Shown piece after piece: positions 4,001 through 30,200 of a DNA stretch of 64,000 nucleotides. Source of the stretch: Liolophura sinensis (lineage: Eukaryota > Mollusca > Polyplacophora > Chitonida > Chitonidae); the NCBI RefSeq assembly GCF_032854445.1, contig NC_088307.1:13888001-13952000 (forward strand), given 5' to 3'. Position numbers and translations under genes: made by a program. Every line of letters begins with the position of its first letter. Position 1 is the first letter of the stretch. Below the pieces are notes generated by a model. It was not told where the DNA came from, searched no databases, and saw only the letters and a program-made list of their open reading frames with translations.

Positions 4001-7000
4001 TAGTAGTTGAGAGAGGGGACGTAGTCCGTGAAGACGGGAATTGATCCCTGGAACCAGAAGAAAGCTCCCACAACTGCAACAACAACACAGAGGTTTTCAA
4101 CCATTAGAATTCTCTCATAGTGCGGTATTAAGGTTTGAGCAGTACATGTAGCATTTATTTGCAAATAATTCCAGATTGTGATCTTTATCCTTATGCTGAA
4201 TTGAATGTTTTATTTATTTATTTATGTTTATTTGTTAGGTTTTTTGCACCGTATTCTACATGTACAATAATGCACTTCTACGACACCGGCCAGTTTTATG
4301 AGGAGAGCAAAGTGGGCAGAGCCGGGCCAATTGATTTGAAGAGAAAGGCATAAATAGTGTCTTGAAATTTTATCTCTTAGTTCCAAAATGAGCTTGTAGT
4401 GACTGGTTTATTTAGGTGAGATCTCCTAGCTACGGTATGTTGAAAAGCCCAAATCTATTCATATATGTAAATGTATTTATAATACTAGAACAAAATGGCA
4501 CAAAGTCTTTAAGATTTACTTATACATGCATACATACTTCTTCAATATTTATTCAATTTGATTGGAGTTCTATGCCATACTCAAGATCTTCTTGGCAGAC
4601 CTTCCCATGTGCCGCCAGAGCCAAGAGGGATATTTGGTAATGCAAGCAAATACAATCATATATTTAATCACACTTACATGCTCCAGCTGTCACAAACACT
4701 TTGCTGAGGAAGAGAAGGAAATCTGCGATTTTGTCCAGCACAACAGTCCTGAAATGATCCCAGATAAGAACGACATCAGTACATGTAAATCTCAAAATGG
4801 TATCATTTGACATCTGCTCCTTTGTAATATCTGACAATATCTGTAATATCTAATATAAAACATACAAATCAGATGTAAATAGGATATAACTGTTTAAATA
4901 GGTTTTAAAAACTGTTTTGCTTTTTTTTGTCACTCATCTACATACATATTCTATTCGAGTGACCACCCCTGCTGCTCTTCTGATAGTGTTGGGTCAGTAA
5001 GAGCCGCAATCAGACACAAGGGATCATGGGATACTCTAAGTAAAACTAAGGGTCAGTGAAACTGAATAGCATTTACTGTACTCTGCATTCAAGAATAATT
5101 CACTTATACAATGGTTGTCAAGATTACTACAGGAAAAAATAAGTGGAACCAAACGAAACTGCTGCAGTTGCGCAACCTGACGATTAAACGGCATAATGTG
5201 TTTGGCAAGTGCCATGCATAATTCTAAGAGCATAATACTAATTAAACTGTTGTTGTAATATCACTCTATGCAAAATTGTGATGCGTAATTTCTCGATCTG
5301 GAAAGAACGGCAGCCACACTTTCCTAAATTCATCTGGAATATCTGAGGAATTGTTCAGCCAAGCATATCCTGGCCATACCGCCATATACATACAGACTCA
5401 GAACTAAAACACCGCACCATTGCTGTCTGCGCACTGCGTATCTCACCTAATCCACAGGCATCGTTCTTTTAAGTAACACTAATGCAGACGTTTAAGTGGG
5501 AGAACAACTTTGTGACTGTACATTTCTGGTGCTTCTGGCCTCATACTTCTTATCCAGGAATGTACAGTTACGTTATTAAATAAGCGATGATTTCATTTCA
5601 TGATTTCTTTGAACTGTTGCTGAACCTACGCCATACTCACATATACGATGGTGTGTGAGTGGTCTGTGGGCAGAGGGAACCACCTAACTTTGGCAAGATA
5701 GTGGCCAACTTTTCCAAATGTGACATACAGATCATGCACACATTCTTCAACAAAGACAACGCTATGCAAATGGACACTATGCAAGAAGTTACTTACTCCT
5801 TACATTGTCACAAAGGTCCCACAAGCAAATTAATTAGTGTGGGGATTCTAATAATTCCTTGTCCAGGGTTGGTTTTGAACCAGCATCTCCTGTCTTCCAA
5901 CCATTAAATCATGGTCCACACCCAACAATAATATGAAACAAAAGATTTCCACATCTTGGAATACCTGACAATATTCCTCATGATCAAAAAGAAGGCGTTC
6001 TTGGCGGAGGTACAGAAGTTTTTTCCATACACAGCGGTCAGGATGTACGCATTTCTGTTCAGGAACTTCATGAATTTCTCCAGACACCAGAAGCAGCATT
6101 TAAGACACCTGAAAAATTGCGATGAAACAATGCAACTCTAAAAGTGCGATGAAACAATGCAATTCTAAAAGTGTGATGAAACAGTGCAATTCTAAAAGTG
6201 TGATGAAACAATGCAATTCTAAAAGTGTGATGAAACAGTGCAATTCTAAAAGTGTGATGAAACAATGCAACTCTAAAAGTGTGATGAAACAGTGCAATTC
6301 TAAAAGTGTGATCAAACAATGCAACTCTAAAAGTGTGATGAAACAATGCAATTCTAAAAGTGTGATGAAACAATGCAATTCTAAAAGTGTGATAAAACAA
6401 TGCAACTCTAAAAGTGTGATGAAACAATGCAATTCTAAAAGTGTGATAAAACAATGCAATTCTAAAAGTGTGATGAAACAGTGCAACTCTAAAAGTGTGA
6501 TGAAACAATGCAACTCTAAAAGTGTGATGAAACAATGCAACTCTAAAAGTGTGATGAAACAGTGCAATTCTAAAAGTGTGATGAAACAATGCAACTCTAA
6601 AAGTGTGATGAAACAGTGCAATTCTAAAAGTGTGATCAAACAATGCAACTCTAAAAGTGTGATGAAACAGTGCAATTCTAAAAGTGTGATGAAACAATGC
6701 AATTCTAAAAGTGTGATAAAACAATGCAACTCTAAAAGTGTGATGAAACAATGCAATTCTAAAAGTGTGATAAAACAATGCAATTCTAAAAGTGTGATGA
6801 AACAGTGCAACTCTAAAAGTGTGATGAAACAATGCAACTCTAAAAGTGTGATGAAACAATGCAACTCTAAAAGTGTGATCAAACAGTGCAATTCTAAAAG
6901 TGTGATGAAACAATGCAATTCTAAAAGTGTGATGAAACAATGCAACTCTAAACGTGTGATCAAACAATGCAATTCTAAAAGTGTGATCAAACAATGCAAC

Positions 7001-10000
7001 TCTAAACGTGTGATCAAACAATGCAACTCTAAAAGTGTGATGAAACAATCCAAACTATGGTATTTAGTTATTTATTTATTTGATTGGTGTTGTATGCCGC
7101 ACTCAAGAATATTTCACTTGTACAACAGTGGCCAGCATTATGGTAGGAGGAGAAATTCTACGTGTGTGTGAAAAAGTAAAATCTCCTGAGCTATTACAAA
7201 GGGTACTTATGAAGCATATTTTAAATTTACTCCTGTATATATATATATATATATAAGCATTATTGTTTTCATTATTATCAATTTTATACTCACTTTAAAA
7301 AGAATTTAGCCACCACATTTTCACTTCCTTTTAATTTATGATCCAGGTACTCAAGTCCAACTCGTATAATTTGTATAATGGCAATGATCAGAGAGCCAAA
7401 AGCCAAGGTTCCAAAGTGATAACGAATACATCGCCATAGCGACCCAAGAATGGGGAATGCTGGGATGTCTCGGGGTTTTTCCCAGGCCCAGTAATAGGAG
7501 GCAAAGGCACCAGCCAAGGTCATCTCTCCAAGGGCAATGACAAAGTTCAAACACCAGAAAAACATAAACAGCATGTAGATCTGCATGAAAATAGTGTACC
7601 TGGAAACAGAGATAAAACCGGAAAGCTTTAAGTTACAAGCAATGAAGAAGCAAGATTTCCCAAGAAGGGACATATAAACTCCGTAAAACCTATCACTGTA
7701 ATAGCATTCATGTTCAAAAGGCTTTTGGTCTGTGGTAGACAGGTTCAAAAGCTCTAGGTGAAGCTGTTCTATAGATATATAGTACATGTTACAAACAATG
7801 AAAAAGTTAACAGACTGAAGGACATACAGAGCTGGACGAATGGATAGACCCCGTGTGTAAATTAGTACAACCAGACATTAAACTGCTAAATATGAGTCTT
7901 GAAAGAAGTCTCCCTCTGTTTGTTTATCAATTTGAATTTTTCACTTACATGCGTACAATGGCAGTACATGTTATGGGTGGAGTGATCAACATAAACCCCC
8001 GACTTTTGGAAAGATCCTGACCAACTTTCCCACAACTCATGTACAGATATATGTGCACAGTTTATTGTTGGAAGACAAGTGGCATTCATTGAGCATTAGA
8101 CTGTAAAACTGTCCACACAAGAACCAATGACCTCTTTATGTTGTCACCACGGCCTCACAATCAGAGACATTGTAGAAATCTACTACAACAAATTCCCTGT
8201 CCAAGGTCAGGTTTGAACCCGTACTTCATGTCCTAGCAAACGATAGGCAAGCACACCTAATCATGTCCTAGCAAATGATAGGCAAGCACACCTGATCATG
8301 TCCTAGCAAATGAAAGGCAAGCACAACTAATCATGTCCTAGTAAATGAAAGGTAAGCACACCTAATCATGTCCTAGCAAATGAAAGGCAAGCACATCTAA
8401 TCATGTCCTAGTAAATGAAAGGCAATCACACCTAATCATGTCCTAGCAAATGTTAGGCAAGCACACCTAATCATGTCCTAGCAAATGAAAGGCAATCACA
8501 CCTAATCATGTCCTAGCAAGTGAAAGGCAAGCACATCTAATCATGTCCTACTAAATGAAAGGCAAGCACACCTAATCATGTCCTAGCAAATGTTAGGCCA
8601 GCACACCTAATCATGTCCTAGCAAATGAAAGGCAAGCACACCTAATCACTAGACAAGACTTGCTTGCTTGGGCAGAGGGTATAAAAAAAAAAACATGAAC
8701 TTAAAAATTGTCTAATTTTGTAGCAAATGTGGACTGACTTTGACAGCCTTAATTTCTTTCCGTTGACACACTAACATGATCAAAACCCCTTGAAAAGTCA
8801 CAAAAAATTTTAAGATCAGCCAAAATAAGAAGGCAGATTTCCAGTCTTATTTTTATTACATTTTGGGATTCTTTAGTGTCATTTTATCCATAAAACACGA
8901 AATAAACTTGATGTCACATACACATAAATCAAAAATAAACGGATTATTCACTAAATTTAACCATGCATCCGGGATCCACTTCATACAGCATGCTGATTAG
9001 ATAGCGAAAAATTTCCTTGAAATTAATGGTGACTATATAACACTGTGTGCACAAAAATTCTTCAACCTTTTTGTGTCTTTGCAAGGTGTTTATTCAAACA
9101 TATTCTGAAGGCATTATTCTGTGTAGACAGTCACAGTTATACTTTTTGCAAAGCCCAGAAGTTGGCCAACCCAGCCAATTTAGTTTTGTCTCCAAAATAA
9201 GATTAAAAATGTGCATAAATTGCACTGAAAGTTGCGATGTCAAAAATGCGAAGCCAAATGTTGAGGAATTTGGGTAGGCCTACAATATATACAGTTAAAA
9301 TGTCAGGAAAATGTGATGCTCAATCAATAAATCAATACTTACTCATCTCCTCCATACTTGACAAATTCACACAGGTCCCCAGCAGTATTACTGGTCTGTC
9401 AAACGCAGGACATATACAATTAATATTGACTAGTACCTTTCTCCCATTGTCACCACTGTTACTTTAAAATCATTTACATATTTCTGCCAGTTGTATTTGA
9501 TTTATTTATTTATTTGATTGGTGTTTTACGCTGTACTCAAGAATATTTCACTTATACGACAGCATTCTGGTGGGAGGAAACCGGGCAGACCCCGGGGGAA
9601 AACCCACAACCATCCGCAGGTTGTTGACAGACCTTCCCACGTACGGCCTGAGAAGAAGCCAGCATGAGCTGTACTTGAACTCACAGCGACAGCATTGGTG
9701 AGAGACTCCTGGGTCATGCCAGTTGTAACGTAGGCCTAAATATACCTTGTATTTATATGATCAAATGTCATGTTAATTTATTTATGTACTTTACAGAGGG
9801 TCCCAAGAAATGACAGATTATTCTGTAAATGAAGTCTGAGAAAATAAAAGGACTGATTTGTTTCATGTTTAACACTATACTCAAGAATTTTTCACTTTTA
9901 CGATGGTGGTCAGTTTTATGGGTTGAGCAAATCAGAGTGCCTGGGATAAACCACAAGCTTTGGGCAAGCTACTGACAAACTTCCTCTTGTGTGGCATACA

Positions 10001-21286: not shown

Positions 21287-24200
21287 CATAACTAAGACGT
21301 CCATAAAAACCAGCTGTCCTATGTTTTTGCATTTCTTCACCCAATTCTGCATAAGCCATGGGGCTACTTAAGCCATGGGGCTACTTAAGCCATGGTGCTA
21401 CTTAAGCCATGGTGCTACGCAGCATGTAATTTTCTACTATTTAAACATTTATGTGTACATGAACAGTTAGAATAAAACCTTATAAACTGAGGTAGATTTA
21501 ATATGGTGTTGACAGGCCTGTCAACTACATGTACCAGGCTATCATCACTGCTATGGGGGGCCTCCGTGGCTCAGTCGGTTAAAGCGCTAGCGCAGCGTAA
21601 TGACCCAGGAGTCTCTCACCAATGCGGTCGCTGTGAGTTCAAGTCCAGCTCATGCTGGCTTCCTCTCCGGCCGTACGTGGGAAGGTCTGCCAGCAACCTG
21701 CGGATGGTCGTGGGTTTCCCCCGGGCTCTGCCCGGTTTCCACCCACCATAATGCTGGCCGCCGTCGTATAAGTGAAATATTCTTGAGTACGGCGTAAAAC
21801 ACCAATCAAAAAAAAAAAAAAAAAAAAAAAAAAATCACTGCTATGGTTTCTTGTCCATGCTGTAGTCTTTCAGTGTAATTCTTCAAGCCTTCAAAACGTT
21901 TGGAAAAAGTGTTAATTCAAGCATATTATGAAGGTATTACTCTTTGTACACTGCTAAAATTATAAGTTCTGCAAAGCCCTCAAACTGGCCAATCCAAAAT
22001 CAAATTACAAATCTGCACAAACTGCACTGTTAGCTTCTCTTTCATACGCGAAAGAGTTGAGGAGTTAGGGTAAGCAATAAATGATGCTCTGCTCAAATTG
22101 CAACCTAAATTATGCTCTTTGTATTTTCATACCAGTAACACCTGGCATAACTGACATAGCTGGAAAAATGTAAAACCTCAATCTAAATTTACCGTATGCA
22201 TTATTCACTGCTGAAAAAAAAATGTACCAAAATCATGAAATCTGCATGTATTTGGAATCAGCACAAAATGGCTATTTGGTGGGTACTTTGTTACAGGTGG
22301 TCAGTATGCCCTCTCCCCTTAACGAGAAACAGGTGTGAGCATCTTAGTTACCTGTGGTGTAGGACATCCCCCGGAGATAACAGCCGCACCCATCTGAGAG
22401 CACTTCAGGAAGTCAAAAAACAGGAGGTTTGGTTTGCCCCTGAAATGTACAACAGGTTATTTACAGTTACTTATTGATATGCTATATATAATTGTTAATA
22501 CGTTTCGTAACAATGATGAATTTTTTATTCTATGATGGAACTGATGGAACTTATTTACCATGGGTCTGAATTAAGCTACTTCAGGCAAAATTCCACAGCT
22601 CTGAGTGAAGTAAAAATTTTAAATCTTAATAATTTAAGCGCTAACATTTTTATCACAAGGAGTGGAAATTGGGAACACCTAATTAACATTCTGTTGGTTA
22701 GTGTATCACGTGGAAATTGGGAACACCTAATCAACGTTCTGTTAAGTCGCTTAGTGTATCACCTGGAAATTGGGAACACCTAACCAACGTTCTGTTAAGT
22801 CGCTTAGTGTATCACGTGGAAATTGGGAACACCTAATCAACGTTCTGTTAAGTCACTTAGTGTATCACGTGGAAATTGGGAACACCTAATCAACGTTCTG
22901 TTAAGTTGCTTAGTGTATCACGTGGAAATTGGGAACACCTAACCAATGTTCTGTTAAGTCGCTTAGTGTATCACCTGGAAATTGGGAACACCTAACCAAC
23001 GTTCTGTTAAGTTGCTTAGTGTATCACCTGGAAATTGGGAACACCTAATCAACGTTCTGTTAAGTCGCTTAGTGTATCACGTGGAAATTGGGAACACCTA
23101 ATCAACGTTCTTTTAAGTCGCTTAGTGTATCACGTGGAAATTGGGAACACCTAATCAACGTTCTGTTAAGTCGCTTAGTGTATCACGTGGAAATTGGGAA
23201 CACCTAATCAACGTTCTGTTAAGTCGCTTAGTGTATCACGTGGAAATTGGGAACACCTAATCAACATTCTGTTAAGTTGCTTAGTGTATCACGTGGAAAT
23301 TGGGAACACCTAACCAACGTTCTGTTAAGTCGCTTAGTGTATCACCTGGAAATTGGGAACACCTAACCAACGTTCTGTTAAGTTGCTTAGTGTATCACGT
23401 GGAAATTGGGAACACCTAATCAACGTTCTGTTAAGTTGCTTAGTGTATCACGTGGAAATTGGGAACACCTAACCAACGTTCTGTTAAGTCGCTTAGTGTA
23501 TCACGTGGAAATTGGGAACACCTAACCAACGTTCTGTTAAGTCGCTTAGTGTATCACCTGGAAATTGGGAACACCTAACCAACGTTCTGTTAAGTCGCTT
23601 AGTGTATCACCTGGAAATTGGGAACACCTAATCAACGTTCTGTTAAGTCGCTTGGTGTATCACGTGGATATTGGGAATCACCTTATATGCTAGAATCACA
23701 TTAAATGCTATAATCAAACAAAATGAGGCAGGATGAAATGCTTTAATGTATTCTCTGCAAAATAGTGTCCGTTGAAATTTAATAGCAAATATCTACCTAA
23801 CAGACACCCTACATGTACCTAACACATTGGGTCACTCAAAGGATAATAGCAGAAATATTTTAAAAAATGCTGTCTTATTATAATATTTAGTTATTTATTT
23901 ATTTGATTGGTGTTTTACATCATATGCACAAATATATTTCACTTATATGACCGTCGCTAGCAGTATGGTGGGAGGGAACCAGACAAAGCCTATGGGAACC
24001 CACGACTGTTAAACCATACATGTCGGCACACCTTCGGCACATGTACAACTGGGGAGGAATGCAGCTTATCGTGGCCGGATGTAACATCTAATAGTTGAGA
24101 TACAAGTCAAACTATGTGTCAGATGGAAAGTATAAAATATTAAATGAAATGAAAGCGAGCTAAATGATGTAGGCTTAGCTAAATGATGTAGACTTAGCTA

Positions 24201-27200
24201 AATGATGTAGACTTAGCCCAATGTCACTCACGTCATATCTCCTGTTCCGCAAATGTTCCCTTCTGAGTCAGTGGGGTAGATCAGTTTGTTAGGGTCACCA
24301 CGGACATAACCTGGAGGGTAGAAAATCAATCAAGCATTTTGTTAATTTCTTTTGATTTTTTTGATTGTTCTTTTATGCCATACCCCCTTTAGGCGTTACC
24401 AAAACTTCAGAGAAGTAGGGGTAGGGGAACTGACAGTGTTCAAAGAATTAGAAGAATTATAGTACTTAAGAACATGTCATAAATATTAAGCACATTAATA
24501 CAGATAATGCATGCACGGTTGGCTGTAAATGTCATCAAGGGGCCTCCGTGGCTCAGTCAGTTAGCACACCAGCACAGCGTAATGACCCAAGAGTCTCTCA
24601 CCAATGCGGTCGCTGTGAGTTCAAGTCCAGCTCATGCTGGCTTTCTCTCTGCCCGTACGTGGGAAGGTCTGTCAGCAACCTGTGGATGGTCGTGGGTTTC
24701 ACCCGGGCTCTGCCCGGTTTCTTCCCACCATAATGCTGGCCGCCGTTGTATAAGTGAAATATTCTTGAGTAAGGCGTAAAACACCAATCAAATAAATAAA
24801 TAAATAAAGAAGTAAATGTCATCAATAATTTGTACTCTTTTGCTGGACTAATGTCAACATAATTATACTGCTGCTTCACTGATGTGCCATGCTGAACACA
24901 CCAGACACATCACATCCGGAGGGCACTAAAACTGCTCGGGTATTTAATACGATGCTGTAGCTACATGTATTGCAAGTCATGGACAACTTTGATTTGGTTA
25001 AAATTCTTTTGCATACTTTAGAGGTTTAGGATGATAACCAACAATCGCATGACTGAAGCGAGCAGAAGAGCCGAATGTACAAAGGAATGTTCCAGGACAT
25101 GTGCATTAACATACATGTAAGCCTACTGCACTTAAACGTCACAGTCCTTCAATCTTACCAAATACTGAGAGGCAATCAATCAAATCAATCAGGTGACTTA
25201 CCTAGTACAGGGCAGGCAATCATTCAATCAGCAGACTTACCCAATACTGAGCAGGCAATCAGGCAATCAGCAGGCATACCCAATACTAAGCAGGCGTTCA
25301 GGAAATCACCAGTCTTACCCAATACTAAGCAGGCAATCAGGCAATCAGCAGACTTACCCAATACTGAGCAGGCAATCATTCCATCACCAGACTTACCCAA
25401 TACTGAGCAGGCAATCATTCAATCAGCAGACTTACTCAATACTGAGCAGACAACCATTCAATCAGCAGACTTACCCAATACTGAGCAGTCAATCAATCCA
25501 TCAGCAGACTTACCCAATATTGAGCAGGCAATCATTCAATCAGCAGACTTACTCAATACTGAGCAGACAATCATTCAATCAACAGGCTTACTCAATACTG
25601 AGCAGGCAATCATTCAATCAGCAGACTTACACAATACTGAGCAGGCAATCATTCCATCAGCAGACTTACTCAATACTGAGCAGGCAACATTCAATCAGCA
25701 GACTTACACAATGCTGAGCAGGCAATCATTCCATCAGCAGACTTACCCAATACTGAGCAGGCAATCATTCAGTCAGCAGACTTACTGAACACTTAGCAGG
25801 CAATCATTCAATCAGCAGACTTACCCAACATTGAGCAGGCAACTCATTCAGTCAGCAGACTTACCCAACACTGAGCAGGCAATCATTCTTTCACCAGGCA
25901 TAGCCAATGCAAAGCGGGCAATCAGGCAGTCATTCAATCAGCAGACTTACCCAATACTGAGCAGGCAATCATTCAGTCAGCAGGCATACCCAGCAATGAG
26001 CAGGCAATCATTCAATCAGCAGACTTACTCAATACTGAGCAGGCAATGACTCAGTCAGCAGGTATACCCAATGTTTATCAGTTAATCAGGCAATCATTCA
26101 ATCAGCAGACTTACCAAATACTGAGCAAGCAATCATTCAGCCAGCAGACTTACCCAATACTGAGCAGGCAATAAGGCAATCATTCAGCCAGCAGCCATAC
26201 TCAATGCTGAGCTACCAATCAGGCAACCAGCAGACTTACCCAATACTGAGCTGGCAATCATTCAATCAGCAGACTTACCCAGCAATGAGCAGGCAATCGC
26301 ACAATCATTCAATCAGCAGACTTACCCAATACTCAGTAGACAATCAGGCAATCATTCAATCAGCAGGAATACCCAATACTGAGCAGGCAATCAGGCAATC
26401 AGCAGACTTACCCAATACTGAGCAGGCAATAAGGCAATCAGCAGACTTACTCAATACTGAGCAGGCAATCAGGCAATCAGCAGGCATACCCAATACTAAG
26501 CAGGCGTTCAGGAAATCACCAGACTTACCCAATACTAAGCAGGCAATCAGGCAATCAGCAAACTTACCCAATACTGAGCAGGCAATCATTCCATCACCAG
26601 ACTTACCCAATACTGAGCAGGCAATCATTCAATCAGCAGACTTACTCAATACTGAGCAGACAACCATTCAATCAGCAGACTTACCCAATACTGAGCAGTC
26701 AATCAATCCATCAGCAGACTTACCCAATATTGAGCAGGCAATCATTCAATCAGCAGACTTACTCAATACTGAGCAGACAATCATTCAATCAGCAGGCTTA
26801 CTCAATACTGAGCAGGCAATCAGGCAATCAGCAGGCATACCCAATACTAAGCAGGCGTTCAGGCAATCAGCAGGAATACCCAATACTAATCAGGCAATCA
26901 TTCAATCAGAAGACTTACCCAGCACTGAGCAGGCAATCATTCAATCAGCAGACTTACACAATACTGAGCAGGCAATCAGGCAATCAGCAGACTTACCCAA
27001 TACTGAGCAGGCAATCAGGCAATCATTCAATCAGAAGACTTACCCAATACTAATCAGGCAATCATTCAATCAGCAGACTTACCCAATACTGAGCAGGCAA
27101 TCATCCCAACGATGAACACCAGAAATAACAAGCAGCAAAGCACATCTGTGCATGACCTGCAAATGAATAATCATAATACTTAACTACCAAATGACAAACT

Positions 27201-30200
27201 ATATTTATTCATTTAACTCAATCTTGTTATGTGTTGTAAAGAAATATTCAGCCAACCAAACAGCTGTACTTGTCTACATTTTTCTGAATATTATACATGT
27301 ACATGTATGTGATAAATTTTGATTTTAATTAATTTGTTCTCTGAACTATAAGTTAAATATATTAGCTTGCATCCAAAGTTTGGAACATTTGGAGTTTAAT
27401 ATTTAATATTACAGTTAATTTCCTATTCCATGTATGTAGTTCTAACTGTCAGAAACGGCACAAACCTGTTTTTGATTGGTCCTCGGAAAGAGGGATCATA
27501 CTTTTTTGGTGTTCCTAAAAATAAAAAGAAATGCACAAAACTTATAGATTTCAGAAGACAATGCAAGTAAATTTTGTCACGACATGTTCCACTGTTGAAA
27601 CAAAAATAAAACCAGCAAAACCTAATTAATTCCACATTTATGGGCAAATATACAGGTTGTGTCCAATTAAGTTTATTGCTGAAACTTAAATTGAGTGAGG
27701 AGTTCACCTACCGTCTACCACTCATATCATTATATAATTATAAAAAGATCACGGAACTCTAAGAATCAGGCCAAAGGAGCAACTTGTTTTTGGAAGAAAG
27801 CTTATGTCAGTTACCACAACTTTTTACGCTTTGTAATGTTCCCATACACTTTGATATTGACATCAAATTAATGTAAATTTCATGATGAAAGGCCGGGCAA
27901 AACATGTAGATGAAAAAAATTTCATTTTTGTTTCTTAATTTCAATATATATTTTGTTATAATTTTAAGATGAACAATGATATATACACTGCAACCTAAGG
28001 TGCATTTATGATCACAAGATATGAAATCTTCTCATGAAAGAGTGTAATCGTGAATATGTACTCTCTCTACGATAGATCACTAAAATCTAGACCATTAATT
28101 GATTCTCTGTATCACGTAAAGGCCTTGGTTATCGACAGGTATCATATTTGCAGGCCATGGGTGTGGTCTGCACCTGCCTTGATCGCCAGAGGATCAAACT
28201 TCCAGCTGAACATGTAGCAGGAATGTCACCAAGTGTCGGACGGTAAGATTTGGATGCAAAATGAAGTTAAATGTGCCATTTATTTGGTTATCAACAGACA
28301 GTTTATATATTGATGAATAAGATCATGACAAATTTAATGAAATAAATTTCAGTTTGATTTTTACTAAAGCAGGAGACTGGTTTTAATAAGGTCTATGTTG
28401 GCTAAGTGGAAATCCTCGCTTTCCCCACCTGTCTATTTTCTCGAGTCGTGTATATGATGTTTAATTACACTCTCTAACCATGTATCTGATACACCTGACA
28501 CACCTGATGTAGCCAGAGGCGTTCATTACAGTTATTTACCACATTTGGTTCAATCCCTTGTGGTTTAGAGCCGACAGGTAGGACATGCTGACAGTACTGC
28601 GTTAACACCTACATTATGTACATTGTATGACCATGTCTTCTATATCGTGACTCGATAACTCTTAGCTGGCCAGACCTGATCATGCTGAGAGTGACCAAGC
28701 ATGACCAATGATCAGTGGTCATGGCAACAACAATGTGGTAGCAATCAACATGTATTGTTACACATGGTATTAACCGCATTAAGCCCCTGCATGCCAGCCA
28801 TTTTGAACTGTGATTCCTACACTATTACTGTTCCCCAATAAAATGAAGAGGGACATTGTCAACTGCTGTATAATCCTTGTGGCTGTATAATCCATGTGGC
28901 TTTCAGCTTCAAAAACACAAGAATTCATTCATGTGACCATTATTAACAGCACACATTTTTCTTCAGGGTTCCTTTCATGTTTCATACCATTCCACCCTAC
29001 TTCAAAGCACAATGGACTTGCCCTGGGCCCTTATATAAACACATCAAAACATGACCTATGCATGACCTATTCTTTTTAACAGGGGTTATTGATAAACACT
29101 TTGCATGTTTACCAATATACCAGTACCCAGATTGTATGTACGTGACAAACAACGATCAGTATGACGTCGGTAAAATCACGCCCCGCACTTCTTGAATTAC
29201 ATGGTCACACCCTTTCTCCACAGGCCCATGGCTGCCAAATTCAAGTCAAAAAAAAAAAAAAAATGGCTGCCAAGTATGATGTTAACCTATTCAGCTGTTT
29301 CGGCATGTTCAACAGAAACACAAACGGTGAAGAATGAGTGATCACTTGATCAGGCCGTGCTCTCTGACTCAATACACTGCAGACTGCCATACACAATCTA
29401 TAAATAGATGATGGAGTCACAGCTTTTAACAATTCAAAGCTATCACTTGGTCCGGTTACACATACAGTCTGATCCTGAACTCGAACTCTATCAGCACATT
29501 ATACTGGGTTAGTCAGGTCTCTAAGTACTGCATTTCCCCCAAAAGTTTAGCATTTTTAATGTGTCACATTTTCCTTGATTCTGATCCATTCAGTATTTTT
29601 TTTTTTATTCAGATTAAGATTTTTTTGTGAAGCCTTATTTAATTTCTTATCAGAAAAACTAAAATGGGGGTATTAAAAAATATAATTTTAAGGCTTCTCA
29701 AAAAATATTTTTACTTACCAAACTTTAGGTGAACGACAGCTAGATACATACCCATGGCTTTGTTACAGGTATGTTACAAACAGAACCCACTGGCCGATTG
29801 AAGTGTATGTAACAGGGTTTAATGTTGATCCAACAATCTCATGCAGTAATGTCATTATTTATACAAAATCAAGTTTTTAACTTAATTATAGGCAAAATGT
29901 TTTGAATTGTTTTATATCTCAGTGTTCTATCCAGCAAATCTGCCATCAATCTTTAGATGGTCATCAGTTTCCCCCAAGATCTGCTCGGTTTCCTTCAACG
30001 AGAATCTTCATCACCATTATATAAGTAAAATATTCCCATATATGTATGTTTGAGGTTTTACATCGTACTTTAATAACAATTTTTCAGCTTTATGGTGACA
30101 AGGAATCATTAGGTACGTGTACGCATTTGGTGTCTTCTTGTGACAGGGCGAGTCCACGTGGCCAAAGTGCTGCCGCCACTGACGTATCATGCCGAAGACA

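Follow-up and report, generated by a model that had tools for sequence, protein, structure and literature searches.

The window, a 64,000-base stretch of the Liolophura sinensis genome in which all positions below are counted unless stated otherwise, carries on its minus strand a gene that, by homology, is an SLC44 choline transporter-like (CTL) gene. Exon 2 (27466-27514), exon 3 (27083-27156, 74 nt) and exon 4 (24232-24310, with a provisional donor end), numbered according to our own analysis, join in one open frame, and the junction between exons 3 and 4 is of phase 1. The joined exons match chains 7wwb and 9qu3 of choline transporter-like protein 1 (CTL1) in the PDB (E 1.5e-5), with the alignment running across the exon 3/4 junction, and Pfam family PF04515 matches later exons of the gene at 7287-7616 (E 2.6e-32). 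Exon 3 by itself gave no PDB match, and exons 2-4 gave no Pfam match. Together, the homology and the reading frame support the end of exon 3 at position 27083; both this exon end and the SLC44 identity had been proposed in an earlier, sequence-only reading of the window, and the CTL1 match and open frame lend support to them. Upstream of exon 3 lies an intron of 309 nt, and downstream lies intron 3 (24311-27082, minus strand), with a length of 2772 nt of which ~70% is a tandem array. A 19-bp, 3.2-copy repeat is also present at 24158-24217, ~15 bases past the exon 4 donor, which is not within the repeat. Another repeat near 24600-24800 resembles one from molluscs, which is mentioned as a lead only.

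The array in intron 3 extends over 25154-27104 of the minus strand and comprises 48.7 copies of a 39-bp unit (score 2324), as determined with Tandem Repeats Finder (TRF) in one assembly. The unit spans the exon 3/intron 3 junction, with 22 exon bases, corresponding to the last 22 nt of exon 3, and 17 intron bases. Read along the minus strand, the exon end ATGATTGCCTGCTCAGTATTGG is followed by GTAAGTCTGCTG and then by tandem copies of that junction. Unit register and alignment place 49 donor positions in the array, with the first copy consisting of the real exon 3 end and its donor (first intron base 27082) and the following 48 being decoys. The unit had been described from the sequence as the end of SLC44 exon 3 with its donor and the first intron bases, present in ~45-50 copies, and the unit register confirms this composition and bears out the count. 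The upper boundary proposed for the array, 27104, also stands, but the lower one, 25190, does not, because TRF extends the array to 25154. GT is kept at 48 of the 49 donor sites, with the one loss at a decoy at 25903, and GTAAGT is present at 36 of them. Over positions -3 to +6, 22 of the 48 decoys are identical to the real donor, TGG/GTAAGT.

The 48 units measure 39 bp in 39 cases, 47 bp in six, and 38, 40 and 43 bp in one case each, and 42 of the 48 unit sequences are distinct. The array also contains two copies of a 461-base block set 1210 bases apart (copy A, 26396-26856; copy B, 25186-25646; both minus strand), which are identical at 442 of the 461 positions. When up to three mismatches are allowed, 28 bases taken from the unit match at 41 places in the window, where none are expected from 100 shuffles. 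With a 30-base stretch and the same tolerance, all 39 matches in the 609-Mb genome fall inside the intron 3 array in a search that skips very common words; under those conditions, no unit copies were found elsewhere in the 609-Mb genome that would point to a dispersed satellite or a transposon-borne repeat. The array is of local origin, and its head-to-tail units of tens of bases and internal reshuffling are those of a minisatellite.

The real donor, GTAAGT at 27077-27082, has a U1 pairing energy of -10.3 kcal/mol. Counting the real donor itself, the ~1.9-kb array has 24 GT sites of equal or stronger U1 pairing, whereas the remaining 62,059 bases of that strand have 10. Scoring the donor of each unit, as the sequence-only reading had suggested and as done here by U1 pairing, thus finds 23 decoys that equal or surpass the real donor.

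Use of any decoy would retain the first unit, and therefore all 48 decoy products stop at one in-frame TGA in that unit (27068-27066, minus strand, by translation), ending SVLGKSAD, so that the real donor alone gives an open product. The sequence-only reading had expected truncation from most decoys, including the first; the truncation holds, but "most" becomes all 48. It had also divided the units into closed ones with gattgaatg and open ones with gattgcctg, a split that is irrelevant because every product includes the first unit with its TGA; the presence of gattgcctg has no bearing on openness. Nor does a unit length divisible by three keep every decoy in register, as had been supposed, because 9 of the 48 units differ in length from 39 bp. 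Frame-keeping as a function of the array is ruled out by these varied unit lengths, by truncation in 48 of 48 cases, and by the periods of the other arrays described below, which leave any remainder on division by three.

The aligned units show no special conservation of the splice positions. Positions -3 to +6 carry 43 mismatches in the 48 units; the 39 cyclic windows average 38.3, and this one is 29th from the most conserved end. Positions critical for U1 pairing are among the most variable, with mismatches in 14 of 48 units at -1, 9 at +4, and 12 at +6. GT is nearly invariant across units, yet 3 of the 39 pairs of neighbouring columns vary as little. When the decoys are divided into three blocks of 16 with increasing distance from the exon, the blocks contain 8, 8, and 7 strong sites, showing no gradient of strength. 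This column-wise test gave no support for selection maintaining the donors, and the decoys show no sign of being kept or removed.

A mirror array is found at another junction of the same gene, where TRF and a reading of the units identify 34 27-bp units ending in TTTAG (6113-7053, minus strand) that precede the real acceptor. This acceptor, CGCAATTTTTCAG/GTGTC, is the final copy of the array, and the first exon base is 6108. The array is held in an intron of 1185 nt (6109-7293), and the exon that follows it, placed at 5965-6108 from the sequence and from matching exons in paralogs, lies on the same strand. This array goes unmentioned in the sequence-only reading of the intron 3 repeat. Overall, the SLC44 gene presents one junction with 49 donors and another with 35 acceptors, of which 34 are decoys.

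We examined stretches of five SLC44 paralog loci in the same genome, locating exons and seeking arrays with TRF. The end of exon 3 is shared by the closest paralog, in which that exon is 69% identical over 26 residues; in the corresponding intron TRF detected no comparable array, only a 21-bp, 3.3-copy stretch with a score of 80. In a second paralog (L014, 3669-5065 of its stretch, minus strand), a 55-bp, 26-copy array consists of the end of another exon and its donor. In a third, on C7 (L021, 3516-4412, plus strand), a 24-bp, 37-copy donor array starts at an exon end, many decoys outpair the real donor with U1, and the frame is open for 188 bases. The 22-residue exon end in L021 gave no hit when it alone was compared with Pfam, and we take it to be an SLC44 exon end from its place in the gene and a known motif. 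Acceptor regions are repeated on a smaller scale as well: in one SLC44 paralog, an acceptor reading TTTGCAG or TTTACAG and a little coding sequence next to it recur about three times in tandem (L024, 9506-9700, plus strand), and at an SLC44 paralog locus a 155-bp, 3-copy repeat includes the acceptor region of an exon (L015, 1667-2142, minus strand).

Arrays of splice sites also recur in other genes. Genome-wide, triples of GGTAAGT at a spacing of 21-51 bases gave 1724 matches compared with 2441 for the reversed motif, and triples of CAGGTAAGT gave 249 compared with 161, where the counts are of matches and not of arrays; a few large arrays could be the cause of the excess of CAGGTAAGT triples. 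Among the matches listed, the first 3.55 Mb of contig C1 hold 8 GGTAAGT arrays and 6 of the reversed motif, and outside arrays the heptamer and its reverse are about equally frequent (36 and 43 occurrences in 237,784 bases). In this comparison with reversed patterns, the idea that minisatellites tend to carry donors was rejected: for GGTAAGT triples, the reversed motif is no rarer by the genome-wide match counts.

From the matches listed on C1, we grouped and sampled 20 GGTAAGT arrays and read their exon-side flanks by eye. By our own reading, nine abut an exon end (L037, L038, L039, L042, L043, L044, L045, L050, and L052, with ~50 bases between exon end and array in L050), nine do not, and in two (L036 and L049) the array occupies most of the stretch, which makes them unjudgeable. 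Homology with E<0.01 was found in six of the nine exon-abutting cases: glycoside hydrolase family GH31 in the flank of L044 (E 3.5e-13), RNA polymerase III RPC1 in L052 (E 3e-9), N-acetylneuraminate lyase in L043 (E 9.8e-4), Branch in L050 (E 0.0076, a match below the curated cut-off), and, among L037 and L045, a myosin head (E 2.2e-10) and DUF4457 (E 3.3e-15), the latter presumably marking a KATNIP-like gene. The matches of L039 to polycystin (E 0.086) and of L038 to chitinase (E 0.49) are weak, and the flank of L042, which we take to be TMC-like, gave no homology match. Eight open reading frames from L049 and from seven of the nine non-abutting stretches (L048 and L053 were left out) gave no Pfam match. 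In the oriented stretch L048, the flank, read by eye, seemingly codes on the opposite strand, which places the donor motifs antisense to that gene.

With the three SLC44 cases, the nine arrays on C1 make a set of 12 exon-abutting donor arrays. The period is divisible by three in 4 of the 12, as chance predicts, and in all 12, within the stretch examined and under our own definition of a decoy, at least four decoys equal or exceed the first donor in U1 pairing. Two of the 12, L021 and L044, have a period divisible by three and a first in-register decoy whose use would give an open in-frame insertion, and in L052 an off-register GT 18 bases into the array would also stay open. In these three, the first donor pairs with U1 more weakly than many decoys do. 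The array of L044, in the GH31 gene, has a 39-bp period (1435-2001 of the oriented stretch) and a frame that is open for 275 bases beyond the exon end; use of its decoys could add 13-residue repeats.

In five 10-kb stretches (L031-L035), one from the 3.0-Mb position of each of C1-C5, minisatellites occupy 4508 of 50,000 bases (9%; range 1-16%). They occupy 7198 of the 64,000 bases of the window (11%), and both values represent a high load. At a density of ~9-11%, some junctions are expected to be struck without a special mechanism, and an excess of arrays at junctions, for example twofold, may also be compatible with the data. Extrapolation from the 9 of 20 arrays on one contig suggests hundreds of exon-abutting arrays genome-wide.

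Most probably, the intron 3 array is a passive minisatellite that was born locally on a splice junction, with the exon-proximal donor being used and the decoys being removed with the intron. In this account, of which we infer the donor choice at exon 3, the route of array growth and the neutrality, the founding duplication would by chance have covered the exon 3/intron 3 junction, and the array would then have expanded by slippage and unequal exchange. Exon 3 would be recognised by exon definition, as is expected because the 74-nt exon sits between introns of 309 and 2772 nt, and the donor nearest to the upstream acceptor would be preferred, leaving the 48 decoys passive inside the removed intron. 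A study of competing donors reports that long flanking introns and equal sites favour the donor lying nearest across the exon, also in minigenes whose two CAG/guaagu sites are identical, and it cites a switch to exon definition at 200-250 nt (PMC9225289). Such an exon-centric proximity rule predicts use of donor 27082 in intron 3 and of the exon-proximal acceptor in the mirror array. Use of 27082 is not certain, because the same study finds the downstream donor to win in ~60% of human events taken without a strength filter (PMC9225289). Between the two options left by the sequence-only reading, a position rule that picks the first donor and use of alternative donors, our analysis favours the position rule. 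The passive account agrees with the confinement of the unit to one array, with the closest paralog having no comparable array, with truncation in all 48 cases, and with a lack of strength gradient, of splice-position conservation, and of any departure of periods from chance. It fits equally with the GGTAAGT match counts, which do not exceed those of the reversed motif, and with the minisatellite coverage of 9-11%. Against it count the excess of CAGGTAAGT triples, the 9 of 20 sampled arrays that adjoin exons, and the weak first donors of L021, L044, and L052, which would be disfavoured if donors were chosen by strength.

A functional alternative would be a rheostat of nonproductive splicing, in which some transcripts use decoys, meet the early TGA and decay, and the number of units tunes transporter output. 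One early stop common to all 48 decoys and the 23 decoys that match or exceed the real donor in U1 pairing fit this idea, and in IFI6 splicing is said to start from two of the downstream units as well (PMC4526556). However, the splice positions are not conserved, there is no strength gradient, and unrelated genes contain a like structure with any period, making the rheostat improbable. A wider proposal, that splice-site arrays form a genome-wide active class in which unit number tunes nonproductive or stepwise splicing and whose birth is perhaps favoured at junctions, also appears unlikely; if it were true, the length of junction repeats would be a fast-evolving control of gene output.

The U1 snRNP guards introns against premature cleavage and polyadenylation, and the decoys might serve, unspliced, as a platform of donor-like sites that hold U1 snRNP and shield the long intron. 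The concentration of 24 strong U1 sites in 1.9 kb, when the remaining 62 kb of that strand hold 10, is what such a platform would provide, but the variability at the critical positions -1, +4, and +6 and the presence of acceptors instead of donors in the mirror array make it very unlikely. We give still less credence to recursive, or stepwise, splicing and to 6-nt microexons, in which inclusion of TATTGG would add Val-Leu in frame. Although 32 of the 48 decoys have an AG six bases before the GT together with an upstream CTGAY resembling a branch site, the AG and the branch-like bases are inherited from the coding exon and its flank and need no function. Known ratchet sites have an AG that directly adjoins the GT, whereas 40 of the 48 decoys here have their AG six bases upstream of the GT, and the ~33 nt from a donor to the AG of the next unit would probably be short for an intron. 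Tandem arrays are often mis-sized in assemblies, and the array is known from a single one, but 42 of the 48 units are distinct and comparable arrays occur at other loci, so that an inflated copy number is hardly to be expected either, even if the exact count may differ somewhat.

The human gene IFI6 has a donor-bearing minisatellite at the end of an exon, and splicing from units further downstream reportedly yields three mRNA species (PMC4526556; also referenced in PMC2572611). IFI6 is therefore a precedent for what the sequence-only reading had thought undescribed, and the intron 3 locus alone is thus of an already known kind. As in IFI6, the units of the intron 3 array carry donors (GT in 48 of 49) and the array begins inside the exon. 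IFI6 contains ~26 short (12-base) units; here the unit is 39 bp of exon and intron, there are 48 decoys, read from DNA, and a mirror acceptor array and further cases occur in the same genome. The donor-proximity study resembles our locus in its competing donors of equal strength and its long flanking introns, with preference there for the site closest across the exon, but it concerns pairs of sites in minigenes and human data, rather than up to 49 at a native junction (PMC9225289). Earthworm metallothionein genes likewise have intronic minisatellites in an invertebrate gene, in their first introns, and copying of a splice site by the units is not stated in the accessible portion of that paper (PMC12783039). 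Intron gain by tandem duplication is similar in that part of a gene is duplicated with consequences for its introns; a new intron arises in that process (PMC4974935), whereas here an intron that already existed has grown by dozens of copies of its junction. In a literature search conducted largely outside subscription journals, we recognised no splice-site minisatellite besides IFI6, and no mirrored acceptor array or recurrence in many genes of one genome.

Choice among identical splice sites is usually tested with few competitors, and these junctions provide a natural set with many. RNA reads from the species over all of the exon-abutting arrays could therefore test the exon-centric proximity rule. 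The occurrence of such arrays in this genome suggests that dozens of decoy splice sites are tolerable, even in a gene for a subunit of RNA polymerase III.
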